Shown piece after piece: positions 2,673 to 20,533 of a stretch of DNA of 28,470 bases. The notes below the pieces were generated by a model that worked only from the letters and a program-made list of their open reading frames with translations, did no database searches and was not told where the DNA came from. The first letter of the stretch is position 1. Each line of letters begins with the position of its first letter. Source of the stretch: a virus; IMG/VR virus record IMGVR_UViG_3300001256_000015, positions 1 through 28,470 of that record; one strand, 5' to 3'. The position numbers and the translations under genes were made by a program.

Positions 2673-3550
2673 CCACCGCGACCATCGAGGAGCGCCTCGA
2701 GTTTGAGCACGGGACCGGGGTGGTGGTAGACCATCTGCTGCCTGGTGGCGCGCTCGTCACGCAGGGCGACGCCATCTTCCGCGTGATCCGCCACCTTGGC
2801 ATGGGCGACCGCCATGGCATGCAGCTGGCGCCCATAACCGATGACGACGTGCCAGAGTCTGGCGAGCTGAAGCTTGGTCGCGATCTCCGCGGGGTGAGTG
2901 TCTTCGTCCACACCCCTACCTACAATGGCTGGGTGGCCACCGAGTACTGCTTTGGCCTCATCGACGCCATGATGTCCCTCGGCGTGCGATTCCAGGCCAA
3001 GTCGGAGATGGGACCGCTCATCGCTCGACATCGAGACGAGCTCACCACGCAGTTCGCGGAGGGCGACGCGTCTCACATGCTATGCATCGACGCTGACATC
3101 TGCTTCGGCGCTGCGGACCTAGCTCGGCTGCTGGTAGCTGATCGTGACATCGTCGCCGGCTGCTACCCTCGCAAGAACAGCAAGCGGGACCTACCCGCGG
3201 CGCGCGCCACCGAGGTGGAGCCATCGAGCTCCCCGCTTGTCTCGGCCAAGTTCGCGCCGGCCGGCTTCATGCTGATCAGCCGCGATGCTATTCGGGCGAT
3301 GGCCGAGCAGGTCGACGATTCCGAGTACTACGCCCACAACGGACGCGCGGTGCTGCCGTTGTGGCATGCGCCCAGGGACGAGAACGGGCGCCAGAGCTTC
3401 TGCGGCGAAGACGTCGCATTCTGCCAACGAGCGCGAGCCGCTGGCTTCGACATATGGGTGCACACTGACGTGCGCCTGAAACACTACGGCATGCATCACT
3501 ACGAGTTCGACCCCGGGCCCATCAAGTGGATGGGCGACCGACCCTCGTAG
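2669..3550 (+). CDS. GT-A-fold glycosyltransferase-like protein
   Basis: Starts at ATG 2669, overlapping the methyltransferase stop by ATGA; earlier in-frame starts lie inside that gene. The protein has 293 residues. The first 73 form a small domain I do not recognise. From residue 76 the sequence follows a GT-A glycosyltransferase: VFVHTPTYNG (78-87) as the first strand and nucleotide-sugar loop, LCIDADICF (138-146) with the metal-binding DxD at 141-143, GFMLISRDA (199-207), then CGEDVAFCQRARAAGFDIW (245-263) with the catalytic-type ED at 247-248 and a terminal His (LKHYG, H272) usual for metal ligation. Family 2-like enzymes move sugars from nucleotide donors. With its partner methyltransferase it could build a methylated glycan; acceptor and donor are unknown. 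Confidence 0.78.
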   Translation: MTTATIEERLEFEHGTGVVVDHLLPGGALVTQGDAIFRVIRHLGMGDRHGMQLAPITDDDVPESGELKLGRDLRGVSVFVHTPTYNGWVATEYCFGLIDAMMSLGVRFQAKSEMGPLIARHRDELTTQFAEGDASHMLCIDADICFGAADLARLLVADRDIVAGCYPRKNSKRDLPAARATEVEPSSSPLVSAKFAPAGFMLISRDAIRAMAEQVDDSEYYAHNGRAVLPLWHAPRDENGRQSFCGEDVAFCQRARAAGFDIWVHTDVRLKHYGMHHYEFDPGPIKWMGDRPS

Positions 3551-5440: not shown

Positions 5441-7215
5441 ACCGATTGCAGAAAGCGCGCGGAGACCTTGCGGGAGCTGACGACGCTGTGCGTCTGGCTC
5501 ACGAGGCGATGTCGCCACGGGCGCGAGAGTTAGCAGAGCTGGAGCGCTGGCACGATGGCACCCAGTACGAGGGGCAGCCGGATTGGTTCACGGCCACCGA
5601 AAATGCTCTGTTCGAGCGCGCCCCGTGTATCGTCTACCCGTTCGCGCGAAGTGCGATCTCGTCACACGTGGATCTAGTACTTGGCGATGGCCGATTCCCG
5701 ATCGTCAGCGCTGGCCTCATCGAAGCTGACTCCCCACTCGATGGCGAGGATGAAGATGCGGACGATGATGACCGGGCCATGCTCGACCGATTCATCGTCG
5801 AGACGATGCGGCAGTCGAAGTTCGAACGTGCTGCAAGGCACGCGCTGTCGGCGGCGATGCACTCGCGATCTTCGTGCCTCATCTTCGGAGCTCGCAACGG
5901 AAAGCTGTTCGTTGACCTCGTCAAGTCGAGGTGGTGCGAGCCAGAAAACGATGACGATGGCGCGGTCACCAAGCTGGTGATCCAGTACCCATACACGCAG
6001 GCCAAACAACGCGACGACGGGCATTGGGAGCTGCGCGCCTACCTATTCCGTCGCGAGATCGACGACGAGAGCGACAAGACGTACTACCCACACGAGCTGG
6101 GCAAGGGTCGGCAGGTTGAGTGGGTGGTTGACCCATCGCGCACCGTGACTCACGGTCTCGGGTTTTGCCCGGTTGTCTGGTACGCCTTCGAGAAGGGATG
6201 CGGGGTTGAGGGTCGAATCGATGGCAAGGCCATTCATGAAGACCTGCTCGACGAGATGTACGCGCTCGACTTTGCGCTGAGCCTACGTCATCGGTCTGCG
6301 ATCTATCTCGAGCCGCAAATCTACGAGACTGGTGTAGACCCAGGATACAACCCGACCGAGGCCAAGCGAATGCCAGCCGAGGTGATGGCCACCCGGGCGG
6401 GTGGCGCACCAACGGCGTTGACGGGGGACAACCCCATCAACGGCGCATACGTTGCGCGCAACGCTGGTCAGCAGACAGCGCGTGCCAAGTCGCCAGATCG
6501 AATCTGGCAGTACGAGAACCACCAGGCCAAGGTCGGCATGCTGGCGCTCGACGCCAGCGCGCTGAAGGCGCTTGATGAGCACGCCCGGGACCTGCGCGCA
6601 AAGCTGGCCGAGTCCGTATCCGTGGTGTTTCTCGACCCTGGCGACATCAAGCATGCCGCAGCACTATCCGGCAAGGCGCTGGAGACCCTGCGGAGCCGGC
6701 AGCTAGCGCGCTGTGACCAGATCCGAAGCGACGTTGAGGATGGCCTCATCCTGCCAGGCGTAGCGATGCTCCTGCGCATTGTGTCCACGCTTGGGAGCGG
6801 CAAGGTCCGGGTGCCTGGGATTGCCAGTGCGCTCGATTTGCTCAGCAGATTCTCGGAGAGCGAGGGCAGCCTCGTCCCCGAACTGCGCGCCACGTGGCCG
6901 CCGTACTTCGACATAGACCACGACGAGATCCAGAAGGTTTCCGAAACGGTCCGCGCAGACCTCGACGCCAACATCATCACGCGCCGAAACGCGGTGGCGA
7001 AGCTGGCCGACTTCTACGGGATCGATGACATCGAGGCCCATCTGGACCAGCTGAAAGAGGACGCCAAAGAGGCGCGCGCTGAGATGCATGAGGCCATGAA
7101 GGTCGCAGCTGGCGAGAGCGAGGACGAGGATGGGGCTGGAGAGGGCACACCGGGATCTTCTTCGATCGGAGGGGGAAGCCCGCCTAGTTCTCGACGCATC
7201 GACGCGAGCGGCTGA
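5437..7215 (+). CDS. portal protein
   Basis: A 592-residue protein following the large terminase, in the usual place and size for a portal, the dodecameric ring at the capsid vertex through which DNA moves. I chose TTG 5437 because it overlaps the terminase stop (TTGA) with CGAGG just upstream; ATG 5509 would remove 24 residues. Portal-like features are the N-terminal ELERWHDGTQY segment, an acidic loop at about residues 103-113 (DGEDEDADDDD), LDEMYALDFALSLRHRSA in the middle and a long helical C-terminal part. The last 35 residues (EDEDGAGEGTPGSSS and onward) are a low-complexity tail overlapping the next gene by 86 nt. The subfamily is unclear; identity rests mainly on order and length. Confidence 0.82.
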   Translation: MNRLQKARGDLAGADDAVRLAHEAMSPRARELAELERWHDGTQYEGQPDWFTATENALFERAPCIVYPFARSAISSHVDLVLGDGRFPIVSAGLIEADSPLDGEDEDADDDDRAMLDRFIVETMRQSKFERAARHALSAAMHSRSSCLIFGARNGKLFVDLVKSRWCEPENDDDGAVTKLVIQYPYTQAKQRDDGHWELRAYLFRREIDDESDKTYYPHELGKGRQVEWVVDPSRTVTHGLGFCPVVWYAFEKGCGVEGRIDGKAIHEDLLDEMYALDFALSLRHRSAIYLEPQIYETGVDPGYNPTEAKRMPAEVMATRAGGAPTALTGDNPINGAYVARNAGQQTARAKSPDRIWQYENHQAKVGMLALDASALKALDEHARDLRAKLAESVSVVFLDPGDIKHAAALSGKALETLRSRQLARCDQIRSDVEDGLILPGVAMLLRIVSTLGSGKVRVPGIASALDLLSRFSESEGSLVPELRATWPPYFDIDHDEIQKVSETVRADLDANIITRRNAVAKLADFYGIDDIEAHLDQLKEDAKEARAEMHEAMKVAAGESEDEDGAGEGTPGSSSIGGGSPPSSRRIDASG

Positions 7216-7774
7216 GCGAAACGACTACGACGAAGAGGCAGCGGCAGCCCTGTTGCTCATGCTCCTGACGAGAGGATGGGGCAGGGCGATCGCCGATGCT
7301 CGACTCCGAGCTGCGGTCACCGTTGCAGAAGATGTTCGGATTGCCGAGGATCTGCCCGCTGGGCCCCTTCCAGGGGCTCGCATTGACTACGCTGCGGCAC
7401 GCTACGCCTCAAGGTGGAGGCGCGCATCCGCGCAGGCTCGAGCCGATGGCGCATCGCGCCGTCTCGCCAAGCGCAGCGCCACCAAGGCCCTGAAGGGCTA
7501 CGGCGGCATGGTCGCCGTCACAGAGGCCAGCGTGGCCTACAATTCAGCACGAGAAGCCGCGGCGTTCGACTTCGCGGTCCGCAGCCGAGAGACCGTGCAC
7601 CTCGAGTGGTCCGCCGAACTCGACAGGCGCACGTGTCCGACCTGCGAGAGCAGGGACGACGAGCGCACCCTTGCCATTGTGGGCTGGGGAGGCGACGGGC
7701 CTGGGGCTGTGCACCCGCGCTGCCGGTGCACGTCACGAATCATCGTCGAGGGTCGCCGACGCTTTGCGGCCTAG
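7130..7774 (+). CDS. MuF-like minor head protein (SPP1 gp7/Mu gpF type)
   Basis: A 214-residue protein starting at ATG 7130 with GAGGACGAGG upstream. The C-terminal 55 residues carry the signature of the MuF/SPP1 gp7 family: LEWSAELDRRTCPTC, then PGAVHPRCRCTSRII. C169, C172, H195, C198 and C200 are candidate zinc ligands. Such minor head proteins sit inside the head near the portal, take part in head morphogenesis and can enter the cell with DNA. The N-terminal 150 residues are Ala/Arg-rich helices. The first 28 codons overlap the portal reading frame by 86 nt, longer than other overlaps here. No toxin domain is fused to it, unlike some MuF proteins. Confidence 0.88.
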   Translation: MGLERAHRDLLRSEGEARLVLDASTRAAERNDYDEEAAAALLLMLLTRGWGRAIADARLRAAVTVAEDVRIAEDLPAGPLPGARIDYAAARYASRWRRASAQARADGASRRLAKRSATKALKGYGGMVAVTEASVAYNSAREAAAFDFAVRSRETVHLEWSAELDRRTCPTCESRDDERTLAIVGWGGDGPGAVHPRCRCTSRIIVEGRRRFAA

Positions 7775-7783
7775 GAATCAACC

Positions 7784-8026
7784 ATGAAGATGATCTGCGC
7801 ATGCTGTGGCACCGAGAACGCTCCCAACGCGGCCACGTGTGTGGCATGCGGCGAGGCATCTTGGGTGCCGTCTGCCCCCAAGCCACAACTATCCCTGGAG
7901 CCTGTCAAGGCCGCGCCAGCATCTGACCCGAAGCTACCACCGCATCCGCCAGAGATCGTCGACGAAGCCGTGGGCGAGCAGGACAAGCGCAGCCGCAAGC
8001 GCCGCCGCCGCGGAGGTGACAAGTGA
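7784..8026 (+). CDS. zinc-ribbon miniprotein, 80 aa
   Basis: An 80-residue protein with an N-terminal zinc ribbon: C5-x2-C8, an 11-residue gap including GTENAPNAATC, and C19-x2-C22, the knuckle spacing of short zinc-ribbon domains. The middle is a Pro/Ala-rich linker and the end is very basic (DKRSRKRRRRGGDK), so it may bind nucleic acid or a charged partner. It starts 10 nt after the MuF-like gene and its stop overlaps the next start (GTGA). Function unknown; since it sits among head genes, a packaged or head-assembly role is possible. Confidence 0.72.
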   Translation: MKMICACCGTENAPNAATCVACGEASWVPSAPKPQLSLEPVKAAPASDPKLPPHPPEIVDEAVGEQDKRSRKRRRRGGDK

Positions 8027-14180: not shown

Positions 14181-14542
14181 TGCGACGATTCTGCGCCAAG
14201 GGGCGCCTGCTCGTACCCCACCCGCTTAAGCCGCGGCGCAAGGGCGAGGTGGCACACTACGTCAACCGCAAGGCGGTACAGGCTGACGACGGTCGGACTG
14301 CGTTTCCGGCCGTGTCGGAGCCGCTCGAGTACGACGAGGGCAGGCCTGAGCTGCGCGACATGGATCGTCGGCTCACCAAGCGAGTACGGCGCGACGGAGA
14401 CCTATGGCCGTACGACCGGGAGACGGCTGCGGCCTGCGGCGTCCCGTTCGTACCGGTCACGTTCAACGATGGGGAGTGGGTGGCCTCCAGCAACATCAAG
14501 CCCGCAGCCAAGTCGGCTGCGGCCAAGAAGGCGACTGACTGA
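14180..14542 (+). CDS. DUF2635-like protein preceding the sheath gene
   Basis: 120 residues from ATG 14180 (TAATG overlap). The features GRLLVPHP near the start, GRTAFPAVSEPLEYD in the middle and KRVRRDGDLWPYD resemble, in expanded form, the short Mu-like protein family (DUF2635) usually encoded just before the tail sheath; here the sheath gene starts at its stop (TGATG). The C-terminal 20 residues are Lys/Ala-rich (KPAAKSAAAKKATD). Its function is not established; a neck or sheath-initiation role is possible by position. The family link is moderate because this protein is about twice the usual length. Confidence 0.5.
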   Translation: MRRFCAKGRLLVPHPLKPRRKGEVAHYVNRKAVQADDGRTAFPAVSEPLEYDEGRPELRDMDRRLTKRVRRDGDLWPYDRETAAACGVPFVPVTFNDGEWVASSNIKPAAKSAAAKKATD

Positions 14543-16161
14543 TGGCCCAAATTCCTCTCTCTGGACTCCCGTCAACCTTCCGCGTTCCCGGGGGATACGT
14601 ACAGCTGCGCGTGGCGCAGGGCCCGTCCAGCGCATCGGCTGGCGAGCGCGATGTGTGCCTCGTGATGCCCAAGCTGGCGGCGTCTGGCGCATGGTCTGCG
14701 AACACCGAGTATCGGATCCGCTCTGAGCAAGATGCGATCGACGGCGCCGGTGAGGGATCGTTCCTTCACATCGCCGCACGAGAGTTTCTGAGGCACAACA
14801 AGAACTCAAAGCTCTACGCAGTCCCCTACCTGCCAAGCTCCGCCACCAGCCTGGAGACGGCCGACCTCGACATCGTGGTCACCTTTGCGTCTGGCTCCAA
14901 CCCCACGGCGGCTGGCATCGGAGCGGTCTACATCGGAGGGGAGGCGTGTTCGTTCAGCTACAGCACGGTGGACACCGCGACGACCATCGGCGACAGCATC
15001 GAGGCGGCCATCAACGCGCGGACCTGGCTTCCAGTCTCTGCGAGCAACACGAGTGGCACCGTTACGATCACCTGCAAGACTGCTGGTATCGCCGGTGGCG
15101 ACGGTACGCGGCCAGTCGTGCGCGTTCGGATGGAAGTTTCGCCGTCCACGAACGTCACGCTACAGTCGGAAAACAGCCTAACGTCCGACTTCCTGGGGAA
15201 CTCGTCCGGCCAGGCTGGAGTGGATGGCTCCACGACGGAGGCCTCCAATCTCAACACCGCCCTTTCGTCGCTCGACGTCACGCGTCGGTACTATGTCGTG
15301 ACCTCGACCTACATGTCAGATGGTAGCGACGAGGGCTGGGACTACGTCAACTCGCACGTGGTCACGAAGTCAGCCCCGAAGCAGGGGCTGCGAAGCATTG
15401 GCGTCGCCGCAGCGGTGCACACCCTGGCTGACGTCACCGGAGACGTGAACTCGCTCAACAGCGAGCGATTCCGCGTAGCGTGGCAGAAAAACAGCGACAA
15501 GCACCCTGCACAGATCGCAGCGGCCTATGCCGCTATCCTTCAAGCGGGCGAGTCACTCGACGCCGCGTACAACTTCGACGGCTTCCGAGGCGGGCGACAG
15601 GACATCACCAACGGGTGGTTCATCCCAGCGGCTGCGGACAACGGCGACTGGCCGGACACCGATGACGTGAATGACGCCATCAACGATGGGATCACCGTCA
15701 TCCAGTCCGACGACCTCGGCAGCTACATCGTCATGTCGTGCTGCACGCGTTCGAAGGACGCAGGTGGCACCGTGGACGACTTCCGAGCCACCGAGACGCA
15801 TCGCGTGTCCGCCGCAGACTTCGTACTCGACACGCTGCTCCTCCGGTTCCGACTCGACTTCGCCAACTTCAAGCTGGCCCCTGACCAGCTCCTCGCAGAT
15901 GGCGTGACAGTGGACCCTCGACAGCGGATCGCTTCGCGGACGACCACGCCATCCACGTTCAAGCCCTGGATGATCCGACAGCTGAACACATTCGGCCCCG
16001 CTGGCCGGGGGCTTCTCGTTCGGCTCACCGATACCGAGTCTGGGCTCGACGTACTTCTCGACCCCGACAACAGCGGACGGCTCGAAGTCGGCTTCCCGAT
16101 GTATGTCGTGAATCTTCTCCACCAGGCGACCATTCGCGCCGACGAAGCTACGGAGGGCTGA
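14542..16161 (+). CDS. contractile tail sheath protein (Mu gpL-like)
   Basis: A 539-residue protein that establishes the phage as a myovirus. The order DUF2635-like, sheath, tube, chaperone, tape measure is that of Mu-like tails. The N-terminus begins LSGLPSTFRVPGGYVQL and the C-terminal domain contains typical sheath segments (HRVSAADFVLDTLLLRFRL, RQRIASRTTTP, WMIRQLNTFGPAGRGLLV, ending in EVGFPMYVVNLLHQ). The middle (about 110-230) is a beta-rich surface domain with Thr/Ser-rich strands. Sheath subunits form a helical sleeve that contracts and drives the tube into the cell. Length is normal for the family (Mu gpL is about 495 residues). Its stop lies 3 nt before the tube gene. Confidence 0.92.
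   Translation: MAQIPLSGLPSTFRVPGGYVQLRVAQGPSSASAGERDVCLVMPKLAASGAWSANTEYRIRSEQDAIDGAGEGSFLHIAAREFLRHNKNSKLYAVPYLPSSATSLETADLDIVVTFASGSNPTAAGIGAVYIGGEACSFSYSTVDTATTIGDSIEAAINARTWLPVSASNTSGTVTITCKTAGIAGGDGTRPVVRVRMEVSPSTNVTLQSENSLTSDFLGNSSGQAGVDGSTTEASNLNTALSSLDVTRRYYVVTSTYMSDGSDEGWDYVNSHVVTKSAPKQGLRSIGVAAAVHTLADVTGDVNSLNSERFRVAWQKNSDKHPAQIAAAYAAILQAGESLDAAYNFDGFRGGRQDITNGWFIPAAADNGDWPDTDDVNDAINDGITVIQSDDLGSYIVMSCCTRSKDAGGTVDDFRATETHRVSAADFVLDTLLLRFRLDFANFKLAPDQLLADGVTVDPRQRIASRTTTPSTFKPWMIRQLNTFGPAGRGLLVRLTDTESGLDVLLDPDNSGRLEVGFPMYVVNLLHQATIRADEATEG
16152..16157 (+). promoter_or_regulatory. strong ribosome binding site of the tube gene
   Basis: GGAGGG lies 7 nt before ATG 16165 and inside the last sheath codons. 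It is the closest match to the consensus in the window, consistent with the tube being one of the most abundant tail proteins. Confidence 0.6.
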
Positions 16162-16164
16162 TCA

Positions 16165-16539
16165 ATGGCCGAAATGCAAGACTACGCTGGGCTCGACCTA
16201 TTCTTCAACGGGGCGCAGCTCAAGCAGATCAACTCCCTCGAGCTCACGCTGGAGAGCGGGCAGACGTCGATCGATCTGCTCAACGACGACCTTGGCGGAT
16301 TCTCCCCCGGCGCTGGTCGCGCTCGGATCACCTGCGGGTTCGTCGTGCCCATTGGCGGCATGGAAGAAGATTTCACCGCGCCGCTCGACGACGGAGAGTA
16401 CGTCGCCATGCAAGTTCCTATCGGCAACAAGACGTATGCTGGCACTGGTAAGCTCATCACCATGAGCATCAGCAAAGACGCCGGGGCTCCGCTGGCTGGA
16501 AACTTCGAATGGGAAGGCCAGCTGGAGAAGCTCAAGTAG
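16165..16539 (+). CDS. tail tube protein
   Basis: A 124-residue protein right after the sheath gene, the standard place and size for the tube subunit of Mu/P2-like tails. It begins with YAGLDLFFNGAQLKQI, a beta-strand entry typical for tube proteins, and continues with SLELTLESGQTSIDLL, then ends in a strand with FEWEGQLEKLK. Subunits stack as hexameric rings around the tape measure and form the channel for DNA. The gene has the strongest ribosome site of the region. Its stop shares one base with the following GTG start. Confidence 0.87.
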   Translation: MAEMQDYAGLDLFFNGAQLKQINSLELTLESGQTSIDLLNDDLGGFSPGAGRARITCGFVVPIGGMEEDFTAPLDDGEYVAMQVPIGNKTYAGTGKLITMSISKDAGAPLAGNFEWEGQLEKLK

Positions 16540-16700
16540 TGGCACTGAGTTCGCCACCTCCACATGCCATCTCGTGGCGCTTCTGGCGCGCGGATGGCGC
16601 TGGATGCCGCGTGACGGCACAGACTTACTTTGAGGCACGATCCATCGCGTCGGTGCTTCTGCGAGAGGACCCGCTCAGGCTTTTTGGGGCCCAGGCGTAG
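16539..16700 (+). CDS. hypothetical miniprotein, 53 aa
   Basis: GTG 16539 overlaps the tube stop (TAGTG). The 53-residue product contains ISWRFWRADGAGCRVTAQTY and EARSIASVLLREDPLRL, a short beta-hairpin followed by a helix, and reads like a genuine small domain with G/C third positions. No family is recognised. The place between tube and tail assembly chaperone suggests a tail-assembly factor; it could be related to the second chaperone component seen in other tails, but nothing in the sequence proves it. Confidence 0.55.
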   Translation: MALSSPPPHAISWRFWRADGAGCRVTAQTYFEARSIASVLLREDPLRLFGAQA

Positions 16701-16718: not shown

Positions 16719-17546
16719 ATGAAACCACCGAAAGATTTGGACGGTGCCGACCTGTTCCAGGCACTTCTTGAGGCTGCGCAGCCGAGTGACGTCGTGGACT
16801 ATCCACGTGCCGGCCCTGACGGTCATCCCATTGGCAAGGTGCGGATCATGCTGCTTAGGCAGGAGGATCACGACCGGGCTCGCACGGAGGCGCAGCATTA
16901 CGTGCTGTCTCTCCTGAAGAGCGTCCAGGATAAGTCGATGCGTAACACGATGTTTTCGTCCGACGGCATGACGGCGATCCTTGGCGACGCCACAGCGCGG
17001 AGTCTGCTCGCTCGCGCATGCCGCACGGTCGAACCAATCGCGAGGACGGATGGCAAGGACGCAAAGGACTACGGGCTGATCTTCCCCGATGGGGCAGCGC
17101 TCAAGAAGCTGCCAGCTACCGAGGTGGCCCGACTGTTCAACCTCTACCTGATGGTGCAGCACAAGTTCGGCGGCATCGAGGCGAACATAGGCGACGACGA
17201 CGTGGAATCGTGGGTCGACTTGCTGATGGAGGGTGGGGAAGCCTACCCTTTAGAGCGCTTGCCCTTGGAAACCTTGGCCGAGTTGTGTCTCCGCTTGGCG
17301 TTGCAGGTGTCGGACCTCCGTGCGCAGGGATCGCCGAGTTCTTCGGGGTCCCCGTCAGGGACATCGTCTCCCTCCACCTCTACGCATGGCTCGCCTGCAA
17401 GCGCATCGTCGAGCGATGGGAGCGACGAGGACCACGAAGGCCTGTCATTCGACGAGGATGACGGCGGCATCGACCTCAGCGAGGTCGAGGGCATGTCCCT
17501 CACCGACGTACAGCAGCGCGCTTATCCGCTGATCAAGAAAGACTGA
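16719..17546 (+). CDS. tail assembly chaperone (contains a frame-switch region)
   Basis: 275 residues in the annotated frame, between tube and tape measure genes, the place of tail assembly chaperones that coat the tape measure during tail building. GGGGCGG precedes the ATG. Residues 1-200 are a plausible globular, mostly helical protein (IMLLRQEDHDRARTEAQHY, LPLETLAELCLRLALQVS). From about residue 204 to 232 the frame reads as a Ser/Gly/Pro-rich string (GSPSSSGSPSGTSSP), while the -1 frame over the same bases reads GIAEFFGVPVRDI and onward with far better codon use. The last 38 residues, in the original frame, again look genuine (LSFDEDDGGIDLSEVEG). Either a programmed frameshift, two compensating indels or a true linker explains this; see the finding. 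Confidence 0.8.
   Translation: MKPPKDLDGADLFQALLEAAQPSDVVDYPRAGPDGHPIGKVRIMLLRQEDHDRARTEAQHYVLSLLKSVQDKSMRNTMFSSDGMTAILGDATARSLLARACRTVEPIARTDGKDAKDYGLIFPDGAALKKLPATEVARLFNLYLMVQHKFGGIEANIGDDDVESWVDLLMEGGEAYPLERLPLETLAELCLRLALQVSDLRAQGSPSSSGSPSGTSSPSTSTHGSPASASSSDGSDEDHEGLSFDEDDGGIDLSEVEGMSLTDVQQRAYPLIKKD
17327..17413 (+). other. segment with coding signature in the -1 frame of the chaperone gene
   Basis: Over 17327-17413 the -1 frame has G or C in 28 of 29 third positions, against 18 of 29 in the annotated frame. Over 17247-17326 the annotated frame is better (22 of 27 against 11 of 27). The -1 translation contains FFGVPVRDI, LHLYAWLACKRIVERW and joins smoothly to the upstream DLRAQ. It stays open to TGA 17459-17461. 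A canonical -1 slippery heptamer, C CCT TTA, in the correct phase, lies at 17246-17252. GGG runs lie at both ends of the switched segment (17327-17329 and 17418-17420). Confidence 0.6.
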
Positions 17547-17549
17547 CTC

Positions 17550-19628
17550 GTGGCCCTGCTCCAGTACGACATCAGCGTGGTGGGCGCGAAGAACGTCGAG
17601 CGAGCTCTTGCGAGCATCGAGCGGCGATTCGTGACCCACAACCGCAAGGTGTCGCGCACGCTTGGATCATCGGGCAAGCGGGCGGGGAATTACCGGAGCA
17701 ACGCTGGTTCGGATGCCCGCGCAGCGGCATCAGCTCAGCGCCGCGTTCACGGCGAGCGGATGCAGCAGATCTCGCAAGAAGAGCGAGCACGCATCCGTGC
17801 AGAGCACCGCATTCATCGAATTGCGCGGCGAAACCAGCGGCGACGCGCGCGATCAAATCGACGGGCGCGCGTAGCCGAAGAGCGCGCCACTGCACGCGCA
17901 CGCACTCAGTTCCGTGGCCAGGTCTACAGCAACATGCGAGGCACAGTAGGCAGCGTGGGGCGCTACGGACTCATGGCGGCATCGATGGGTGGCGGCCTTG
18001 CGCTGGCCGGGTCGCTGCAGTCGGAGCGCGACGTGGGCAAGCAGGCCATGGGGCTGGCCATCCAGGGGCAGCGGTCGCAGGGCAAGAGCCGCGGCGGGAC
18101 GGTGCAGGACCGATACAGGCGCGTCCGAGGCACCGTCGGTGCGCTGGGACAGATGGGATTCGACCGTGATGGCGTCGTTCGTGCGATGCGCGGATACCAG
18201 AGCATCACGGGCGACTTCGACACCGCGAACAAGCTCGCTGGCGAATTCAGCAAGCTGGCCCTCTCGTCAGGTGCAGACTACGGCGACGTCGGAAAAACTG
18301 CTGGCGAATTCGACATGGCACTCAAGGGCCAGGGCATGGGCGACGCCACGAAGCGGCGCGCTGCCGTCAAAGACCTGATGCGCACGGCCGCGGCCAGCGG
18401 CGCGATGGGATCTATTGAGTTCTCAGAGCTCGCTGGCATCTCTTCTCAGCTGGGCGCATCTGGCGCTCGCTACACTGACATGGACCCGGTTGAGCGCATC
18501 AAGTATGCGCTCAGCGCCGCGCAGCTGGCGAAGATGGGTGGGGCATCGAGCGGCGCCGAGGCTGGCACGGCGCTGATGCGGTCCAGTGACGACATTCTGA
18601 AAAATAGCGGAAAGTTCAAGAAGCTCGGCATCGACACGGGAACTTACGACGACGAAGGCGTGCGAACTGGCACCAAGAACCCGATCCAGCTGCTCGCGGA
18701 GACGCTCAAGAAAACGAAGGGCGACGTGGGTGTGATCTCTGATCTGTTCGGTATACGAGGAGCGAAGATCGGAGAGAACCTGATGACCCAGGCGAAGGCT
18801 CAGGGCGTCAGCATCGAAGACCTTCTCAAGCCCTTCATGAATGCCACGCTCACGGATGCGGAGCTGGATCGCGACACGGGCGCTGCGCTCAGCACAACGG
18901 ACGCAAAGATGACCGCGGTTGCCAACAAGTTCAACGAGCGCCTAGGCCCCAAGATGGCGCAGCTTCTCGAGAAGCTACTGCCCGCCTTTGAGAAGCTGTT
19001 TCCGGCTGTCGAGAAGGCCGCGGACATGTTCGTGCGATTCGTCGACTGGTTCTCCGACAACCCAGTCAAGGGGGTTGGGGCTGTCATTCTCGCCGCGGTG
19101 GCGAAAGACGTAGGCTCGGCCGCCATCGGGCAGACGATCAAGAGCATACTCATGAGGAGCGCGGCGCCAGGGATTGCTCCGAAGGGCGCACCTAACGGAA
19201 CTCCCACGGCGCTCACCACGAGCATTGCCGGCACGGCCGGCATCACGGCCGGCATCTATGGCGCCTACAAGGGGTCAAATATAGCTGGCGACGTCTACAA
19301 GGATGCCGGGTTCGGCGACACCCTGTCGAAGGGGCTTGGCGCGCTACAGGGATACGGCGCGGTCCTGACCGCCGGCACGTCAGCGCCCATAGCCGCGGCA
19401 AGAAGTGCCATCACCGGTGAGAGCTTTGAAAACGCGTTCTTCGGCGGCAACCCGGCGAGCGCCAAGATCGACACGAGCGGGCTGGACAAGATGGCGGCCC
19501 AGGCCCAGTCGGCGCTCACGAAGGCCGCTCAGGACCTGAGCAGCTCGGCAGAGGCGATCAAGTCCAACTCCAGTGGCAACGGCGCGACGGGCGTACCCAA
19601 CCGAGGCAACTCCCCAACGGCACCCTGA
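17550..19628 (+). CDS. tail tape measure protein
   Basis: A 692-residue protein, the longest here, from GTG 17550 after the chaperone. It has the composition expected of a tape measure: a long charged helical N-terminus (EERARIRAEHRIHRIARR, unusually Arg-rich over residues 20-130), hydrophobic helical stretches (GLMAASMGGGLALAG near 143; AGTAGITAGIYGAYKG near 560), Ala/Gly-rich helices and a Ser/Asn-rich end. The segment with EFSELAGISSQLGASGARY and AEAGTALMRS near residue 290-350 is like the conserved core of Mu/P2-type tape measures (gpT/gp42-like). It sets tail length and enters the channel before DNA. At roughly 0.15 nm per residue, a general rule, the tail would be about 100 nm. Confidence 0.9.
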   Translation: MALLQYDISVVGAKNVERALASIERRFVTHNRKVSRTLGSSGKRAGNYRSNAGSDARAAASAQRRVHGERMQQISQEERARIRAEHRIHRIARRNQRRRARSNRRARVAEERATARARTQFRGQVYSNMRGTVGSVGRYGLMAASMGGGLALAGSLQSERDVGKQAMGLAIQGQRSQGKSRGGTVQDRYRRVRGTVGALGQMGFDRDGVVRAMRGYQSITGDFDTANKLAGEFSKLALSSGADYGDVGKTAGEFDMALKGQGMGDATKRRAAVKDLMRTAAASGAMGSIEFSELAGISSQLGASGARYTDMDPVERIKYALSAAQLAKMGGASSGAEAGTALMRSSDDILKNSGKFKKLGIDTGTYDDEGVRTGTKNPIQLLAETLKKTKGDVGVISDLFGIRGAKIGENLMTQAKAQGVSIEDLLKPFMNATLTDAELDRDTGAALSTTDAKMTAVANKFNERLGPKMAQLLEKLLPAFEKLFPAVEKAADMFVRFVDWFSDNPVKGVGAVILAAVAKDVGSAAIGQTIKSILMRSAAPGIAPKGAPNGTPTALTTSIAGTAGITAGIYGAYKGSNIAGDVYKDAGFGDTLSKGLGALQGYGAVLTAGTSAPIAAARSAITGESFENAFFGGNPASAKIDTSGLDKMAAQAQSALTKAAQDLSSSAEAIKSNSSGNGATGVPNRGNSPTAP

Positions 19629-20533
19629 TGGATCCCAACGACGTCCTATCGCGGCTGCCCATCGCGTCGTGGCGGGGCATCGAGGTGCCACTGCTGTCGC
19701 AACAGGCCCGGTTCGATCAGGACCAGGCGCGCCACGTCTACCAGTTCCGAGACAACGCCGTCATCGAGGCGCTAGGCTCGCGCAACTGGGACATTCAGTG
19801 GGTGATCCCGTTTCGCCAGGGCATCGCCATCGAGCCGTTCAGCGAGCTGTTCTTCGATGTGCTCCCCCGGTTCCTCGATGCGGTACGAGACCGCTCGCCG
19901 GGCGACCTGTACGACCCCATCCTCGGATACTACCGATGCCGCGTCACGTCGGTGGACGAGCAGGCCGTCCCAGGCACGCGCGATGGCGTCGACGTCACGG
20001 TCGGATTCATCCATGACCCTGAGCCGGGCGAGCTAGATCTCCCTGGCGCCGACCTCTACAACATCCCATCGCTACAGCAGGGCGCTGGCGCCCTCGACGC
20101 TGAGGTAGGGGAGCTGTTTGAGTCCGACGACCGCCCGCCACCCGAGCCCACTGTGGACCCTCTGCGGGCCATCGCAGGGGCTGGGCAACAGATCACGCAG
20201 AACATCAACCGCGCACAGGCGAACGTGGCAAACTTCCAGAACCGCGTCCAGACGGTACAGGAAACGATCGAGGACCTCGAGCGGCCCGACCTCGCCCCGC
20301 TGGTGCGCTCCGCTCGACGGTTGCGGGCCAATGCTGAGTTCGCAAAGGATCGCGTGACGAATCCACTGGGGATCATTCGGAGGATCACCACCACGGTGGC
20401 CAAGAGCGTCGCAGCCGTCGCGGCCGAGCTGGCAGTGACGCCAGGGGACCTGCTCAAGCTCAACCCGAACCTGGCCACGTCGCCGCTCGTCCCGGCCGGT
20501 ACCGTCGTAACCTACGAGGACACCAGTGGCTGA
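19628..20533 (+). CDS. Mu gpN-like DNA circularization/baseplate protein with C-terminal LysM-like segment
   Basis: 301 residues starting with ATG 19628 on the tape measure stop (TGATG). The N-terminal 110 residues (SWRGIEVPLLSQQARFDQ, AVIEALGSRNWDIQWVIPF and onward) follow the DNA_circ_N-type domain at the start of Mu gpN, with strand-rich features and RCRVTSVDEQAVPGTRDG. Mu gpN is nearer 490 residues, so this is shorter. The middle is helical (about 178-225, NFQNRVQTVQETIEDLER). The last 40 residues (VAAVAAELAVTPGDLLKLN, then LVPAGTVVTY) have the two-helix/strand pattern of a LysM or gpX-like module. The protein would join tape measure, tube end and hub. The next gene overlaps by 8 nt. Confidence 0.7.
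   Translation: MDPNDVLSRLPIASWRGIEVPLLSQQARFDQDQARHVYQFRDNAVIEALGSRNWDIQWVIPFRQGIAIEPFSELFFDVLPRFLDAVRDRSPGDLYDPILGYYRCRVTSVDEQAVPGTRDGVDVTVGFIHDPEPGELDLPGADLYNIPSLQQGAGALDAEVGELFESDDRPPPEPTVDPLRAIAGAGQQITQNINRAQANVANFQNRVQTVQETIEDLERPDLAPLVRSARRLRANAEFAKDRVTNPLGIIRRITTTVAKSVAAVAAELAVTPGDLLKLNPNLATSPLVPAGTVVTYEDTSG

Follow-up and report, generated by a model that had tools for sequence, protein, structure and literature searches.

A conserved slip site and two conserved overlapping frames suggest programmed -1 frameshifting to a shorter, nested product in a phage tail chaperone gene

The IMG/VR record IMGVR_UViG_3300001256_000015, 28,470 bases from an uncultured virus (hereafter, the window), contains an open reading frame (ORF) in which the preferred coding frame changes partway along and then changes back. 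This ORF (16719-17546, + strand, stop codon 17544-17546, unshifted product 275 amino acids) is a predicted tail assembly chaperone gene, and it raises the question of whether its middle part belongs to one misframed protein or is read in two frames. Our analysis indicates that this is very probably the chaperone gene of a Mu-type contractile-tail module, with a programmed -1 ribosomal frameshift in its decoding. Support for this reading comes from a conserved slippery heptamer, a conserved -1 domain, a conserved frame-0 continuation, a chaperone-like predicted fold and a position just before the tape measure gene.

The putative slip site is C CCT TTA (17246-17252, + strand), in phase with the ORF that starts at 16719; a recount bore out both the position and the phase given for it in the original prediction. 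Relatives of this gene were found in one GenBank phage (MW202476.1) and, by three alignment-based scans, in 31 distinct viral contigs; they share 25-44% identity with the window over the N-terminal 200 residues. A single-protein search of viral contigs found no close relatives. In bacterial and archaeal species genomes, the 369 and 187 pattern matches from two scans included no confirmed chaperone relative, and no prophage form was seen. Including the window, the set comprises 33 records; eight that were at least 90% identical to a retained record were removed before further counts, leaving 25 with <90% mutual identity. CCCTTT[A/C] was found in phase at the homologous site in 33/33 records, with only relative L017 carrying C in place of A (in L020, the homologous site is the CCCTTTA at 3525 and not an upstream CCCTTTC). 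With the encoded residues and the codon usage taken into account, a chance occurrence of the heptamer has a mean probability of ~0.0097 per sequence (25 sequences). In-phase heptamers number 13 in 24,330 coding nucleotides (nt) of the window, so an isolated one is not rare, and the weight of this heptamer therefore lies in its conservation. Passages of one study place C_CC.U_UU.A among the heptamers that shift at >0.10% in Escherichia coli without stimulators, and describe it as under-represented in E. coli genes (PMC4066793).

A shift at this site would open a -1 extension of 69 codons plus a stop codon (17252-17461, + strand, stop 17459-17461). Joined to the 178 residues upstream, it gives a product of 247 residues, the length originally proposed. 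Apart from the distant relative L038, which was excluded from the conservation, substitution and profile tests, the -1 frames of the relatives encode 65-83 residues with the pattern LASIG..VGG..LFA..PG.PV.ELA.YF.V.P..L..GH.L.WRA. When the window's -1 peptide was scored against a profile of the -1 peptides of 23 relatives, from which the window had been left out, it reached 24.5 bits, while its frame-0 and +1 peptides scored -1.7 and -1.1 bits and the best of 1000 synonymous recodings of the window scored 8.7 bits. The match covers the core of the extension (residues 19-56; 17306-17419, + strand), which contains the stretch 17327-17413 and before which the window is short of about six residues. 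The window's -1 frame stayed open in 23/2000 synonymous recodings. AlphaFold confidently folded the relatives' -1 domain (L012 sequence; predicted local distance difference test score (pLDDT) 94.5, predicted template modelling score 0.75). Nothing useful matched this domain in PDB or BFVD, and nine extensions gave no Pfam match below 0.05. The distant relatives L038 (1633-2405) and L039 carry the same heptamer, but with the usual layout: frame 0 ends ~43 codons past the slip and the -1 frame runs for 86-87 codons. The L038 extension is not clearly related to that of the family (2.4 bits to the family -1 profile).

Ribosomes that do not slip would read a frame-0 continuation of 97 codons (17253-17543, + strand), an alternative C-terminus that is double-coding with the extension up to 17461. 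Over the 64 codons past the slip site, mean pairwise BLOSUM scores were 2.11 in the -1 frame, 1.39 in frame 0 and 0.72 in the +1 frame (23 sequences, window excluded). The -1 frame (z 43) and frame 0 (z 22) each also lie above a null that preserves the peptide of the other frame; because these nulls remove shared ancestry, the +1 value is a better yardstick than the z scores. Judged from the aligned sequences, both reading frames are conserved over the overlap. In 23 of the 24 sequences that could be measured, the -1 stop precedes the frame-0 stop by 37-190 nt, so that the shifted product is the shorter one and is nested in the ORF. The exception is L038, and L024 could not be measured because it runs off its contig. 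The ORF that follows has a tape-measure-like N-terminus, and in 20/23 sequences, window included, its start is at -8 to +17 nt relative to the frame-0 stop. The three exceptions are L018, where another ORF was picked, L020, where our script found no start although a tape-measure-like frame is present, and L038. In L018, a 186-amino-acid ORF begins at about 3813, directly after the chaperone stop, in the place that the tape measure gene takes in other relatives; by its motif, it resembles an HNH-type homing endonuclease.

The close spacing of the two genes also suits a different account, in which the frameshift is real but the frame-0 tail is a by-product without a role, mainly carrying ribosomes to the tape measure start. 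The window itself lends this some support: across from the -1 core, its frame 0 encodes a Ser/Gly/Pro string, which like the -1 peptide reads as originally described, and its continuation matches the frame-0 profile weakly, at 6.7 bits. Against a by-product, frame 0 in the family is conserved beyond what the -1 peptide would impose (by the z score of 22, from which ancestry is not removed), and most relatives carry a similar terminal motif in frame 0 past the -1 stop (e.g., EPMTLEQA..A..L). We thus consider a tail without a role improbable, though it is the best surviving of the alternatives.

It is less probable still, and in our view quite unlikely, that the gene encodes a frameshifted tail-region protein other than a tail assembly chaperone. 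That possibility draws on profile-sequence searches, the only kind of Pfam and PHROGs comparison made, in which the window ORF had no Pfam match and a best PHROGs match of 0.098 to a family of unknown function, and nine N-domains had no PHROGs match at E <= 0.1; it also draws on a fold similarity that comes from a single aligner. When VIA-align was used to compare the predicted N-domain of the window (pLDDT 81.7) with 652 chains, 2ob9, the tail assembly chaperone of HK97, ranked first (Z 8.9, 103 residues at 3.0 Å), with 16% identity. YqbN (3klu), a tail chaperone homologue, ranked second (Z 6.5), and the third match had a Z of 3.6. The gene also lies where tail chaperone genes lie, after the sheath gene and, by position, the tube gene, and directly before the tape measure gene.

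A further alternative is that the -1 frame forms a small gene of its own, translated from an internal start codon. The window does have a -1 GTG 36 nt before the heptamer, and several relatives have an ATG, GTG or TTG there. When the region from 150 nt upstream of the heptamer (or the last -1 stop) to 120 nt downstream was searched, however, no -1 start codon column was common to half of the 25 sequences, and six of them (L011, L013, L015, L021, L036 and L038) had no start in reach, which makes internal initiation unlikely. L013 carries a -1 stop codon that ends 6 nt 5' of the heptamer, and the frame change is thereby confined to the heptamer's vicinity. Because a separate gene would also leave the invariant in-phase heptamer unexplained, we regard this alternative as very unlikely.

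What first drew attention to the locus was third-position G/C content (GC3). Frame 0 exceeds the -1 frame over 17247-17326 (21/26 vs. 11/27), the -1 frame prevails over 17327-17413 (28/29 vs. 18/29; Fisher test p = 0.0024, uncorrected for the choice of stretch), and frame 0 prevails again over 17414-17543 (36/44 vs. 13/43). The original counts for the middle stretch were reproduced, whereas its frame-0 count for the first stretch (22/27) differed from ours through where the boundary was set. Among 7269 stretches of 29 codons in 29 listed ORFs, a -1 GC3 excess of at least 9 occurred only in the chaperone gene (7 stretches). A +1 excess of at least 9 occurred in five ORFs, the chaperone ORF among them, and GC3 alone is thus not conclusive. 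Substitutions among the relatives, counted by position with ancestry kept, follow a similar course: they concentrate at frame-0 position 3 in codons 1-30 after the slip, and at position 2 of frame 0 (position 3 of the -1 frame) in codons 31-58. As read from this pattern, constraint moves from frame 0 to the -1 frame ~25-30 codons past the slip, a family trait. Because the handover lies this far downstream, the window's base composition changes at 17327 and not at 17246-17252. The lag between heptamer and GC3 switch, which the original prediction took as evidence of indels, is therefore a property of the family. We also looked for the refuting case that it had named, relatives without conservation of the -1 peptide or the heptamer, but alignment of the homologues showed the heptamer, the -1 domain and frame 0 to be conserved, and the programmed shift stands.

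The original prediction had preferred another explanation over a programmed shift: a pair of compensating 1-nt indels, of natural or assembly origin, in the GGG runs at 17327-17329 and 17418-17420, which would misframe the middle of one protein. This accounts for why GC3 flips at ~17327 and returns near 17414, neither of them a slippery heptamer, but it has next to no chance of being right: the GenBank phage and the 31 further contigs show this double coding too, in unchanged registers, the GC3 and substitution handover falls at a similar place in relatives so that the indels would have to recur family-wide, the conserved heptamer would go unexplained, and the window differs from its relatives by ~six codons (18 nt) in both frames. 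Since this length difference is ~six whole codons, both frames of the window stay open.

Several observations weigh against a programmed frameshift in a tail chaperone gene. At 247 vs. 275 amino acids, the longer product is the unshifted one, unlike in described chaperone pairs. The first 18 extension residues of the window are unmatched by the family profile. In relatives, the -1 frame stays open by chance in up to 1330/2000 recodings (L052), so openness by itself is weak evidence outside the window. No conserved structure was found downstream of the heptamer, the family consensus being without pairs, and the window's 80 nt 3' of it fold less stably than shuffled sequences (z +1.4); the 5-bp stem noted originally can be drawn but gains no support from either result. 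A Shine-Dalgarno-like GGAGGG (17228-17233, + strand), 12 nt 5' of the heptamer, is a possible stimulator, and positions -18 to -13 are conserved, but the element is largely accounted for by the residues encoded (Glu-Gly); with ancestry left in, the mean longest match is 5.24 vs. 4.56, a modest synonymous excess. Finally, plain Foldseek of the N-domain gave no match at E <= 0.001, so we hold the support from fold, which comes from one aligner plus gene position, to be moderate.

On the frameshift reading, we infer the slippage, its frequency, the major product and the binding roles as follows. Most ribosomes would read frame 0 to 17546 and make the 275-amino-acid protein. Some would pause at C CCT TTA, perhaps assisted by the upstream GGAGGG, move back by one base and terminate at 17461. 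The 247-amino-acid product would then share its first 178 residues with the longer form but have another folded domain at its C-terminus. If gpG and gpGT of phage lambda are a guide, the shared domain would serve to coat the tape measure protein, and recruitment of the tail tube protein would fall to the -1 domain.

The genes around the chaperone ORF form a tail module, in which the sheath, probable tube, tape measure and DNA_circ_N-like genes are on the + strand. Upstream lie a tail sheath gene (14542-16161; phrog_165, 6e-45) and a probable tail tube gene (16165-16539), the latter assigned by position and without a family match. A small ORF (16539-16700, 53 amino acids, GTG start) with no PHROGs match sits between the probable tube and chaperone genes, and MW202476.1 has a small coding sequence at the equivalent place. 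The tape measure gene (17550-19628, 692 amino acids) begins 3 nt past the frame-0 stop of the chaperone ORF. The N-terminus of its product is homologous to that of the corresponding protein of relative L011 (1e-12, single comparison), which matches the tape measure family phrog_794 (2e-25). Next come a gene for a DNA circularisation protein N-like baseplate protein (19628-20533; PF07157, 2.7e-7; phrog_184 baseplate hub, 2.3e-8), a baseplate hub gene (phrog_177) and a baseplate J gene (PF04865). This order is that of a Mu-type tail module. Elsewhere in the window, an FkbM-type methyltransferase gene (PF05050; 1842-2672) precedes that of the terminase (PF03237 and PF17289; 4115-5440). In the ORF at 7130-7774, the +1 frame exceeds the listed frame in GC3 by up to 14 of 29 codons; the ORF at 7414-7926 overlaps it, and the real gene boundary may be elsewhere.

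A broader interpretation, which we put forward tentatively and hold slightly less likely than its opposite, is that a contractile-tail phage lineage has inverted chaperone recoding. The extra domain would be overprinted in the unshifted frame, both C-termini would be functional, and unshifted ribosomes would end at the tape measure start, coupling its synthesis to the unshifted product; the arrangement is possibly wider than this family. We do not claim that the nested layout is general, as other Mu-like phages that we checked lack it. Passages on the Mu-like phage KS10 report no frameshift there (PMC2628397), and its chaperone gene contained no X_XXY_YYZ heptamer. Curvibacter phage TJ1 had one heptamer, out of phase, and Klebsiella phage ST405-OXA48phi1.1 had an in-phase A AAA AAG with a -1 frame that runs on, which is the usual layout. 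Among the titles, abstract openings and passages of the literature covered, we recognised neither a nested, shorter frameshifted tail chaperone nor CCCTTTA/CCCUUUA as a phage tail slip site. The tool PRFect, as described in parts of its publication, evaluates overlaps between consecutive genes (PMC10885494), and tools of this kind would probably miss a nested ORF. This locus adds a predicted chaperone family that the searched Pfam and PHROGs models lack, and ~200 nt of it are double-coding, with conservation in either frame. It suggests that the chaperone isoform made by a frameshift can be the shorter of the two; annotation based on gene overlaps would probably overlook such a layout. Nested systems also allow one to ask whether tape measure translation couples to the unshifted rather than the shifted ribosome.

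The slip sequence of lambda is GGGAAAG, which differs from the CCCTTTA here. In the passages of PMC5009743 on gpG and gpGT, lambda resembles this locus in having a -1 shift in a gene between those for the tube and tape measure, with a common N-terminal part and different C-terminal domains; it differs in that the shifted product is longer, whereas ours is shorter and nested, with an unrelated-looking -1 domain. Phage SPP1, as portrayed in sections of PMC6316719, likewise has a putative -1 frameshift chaperone pair (gp17.5 and gp17.5*) before the tape measure gene, but it is a siphovirus, with the heptamer UUUUUUC and a longer shifted product (173 vs. 297 amino acids). Phage Mu, with gp41 and its shifted partner, shares the tail module, in which sheath, DNA_circ_N-like and baseplate J genes stand in Mu-like order here. 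The conserved extension here is in the -1 frame, while Mu is reported in parts of two papers to use -2 frameshifting (PMC5009743, PMC4378225). In having a shorter shifted product, the closest parallels are bacterial genes that are not tail chaperones: for copA, a passage in the first of these papers describes a shorter product made by a -1 frameshift (PMC5009743). Unlike in copA and dnaX, the -1 part here is a conserved, confidently folded domain of 65-83 amino acids. The dnaX -1 frameshift likewise yields a shorter product.
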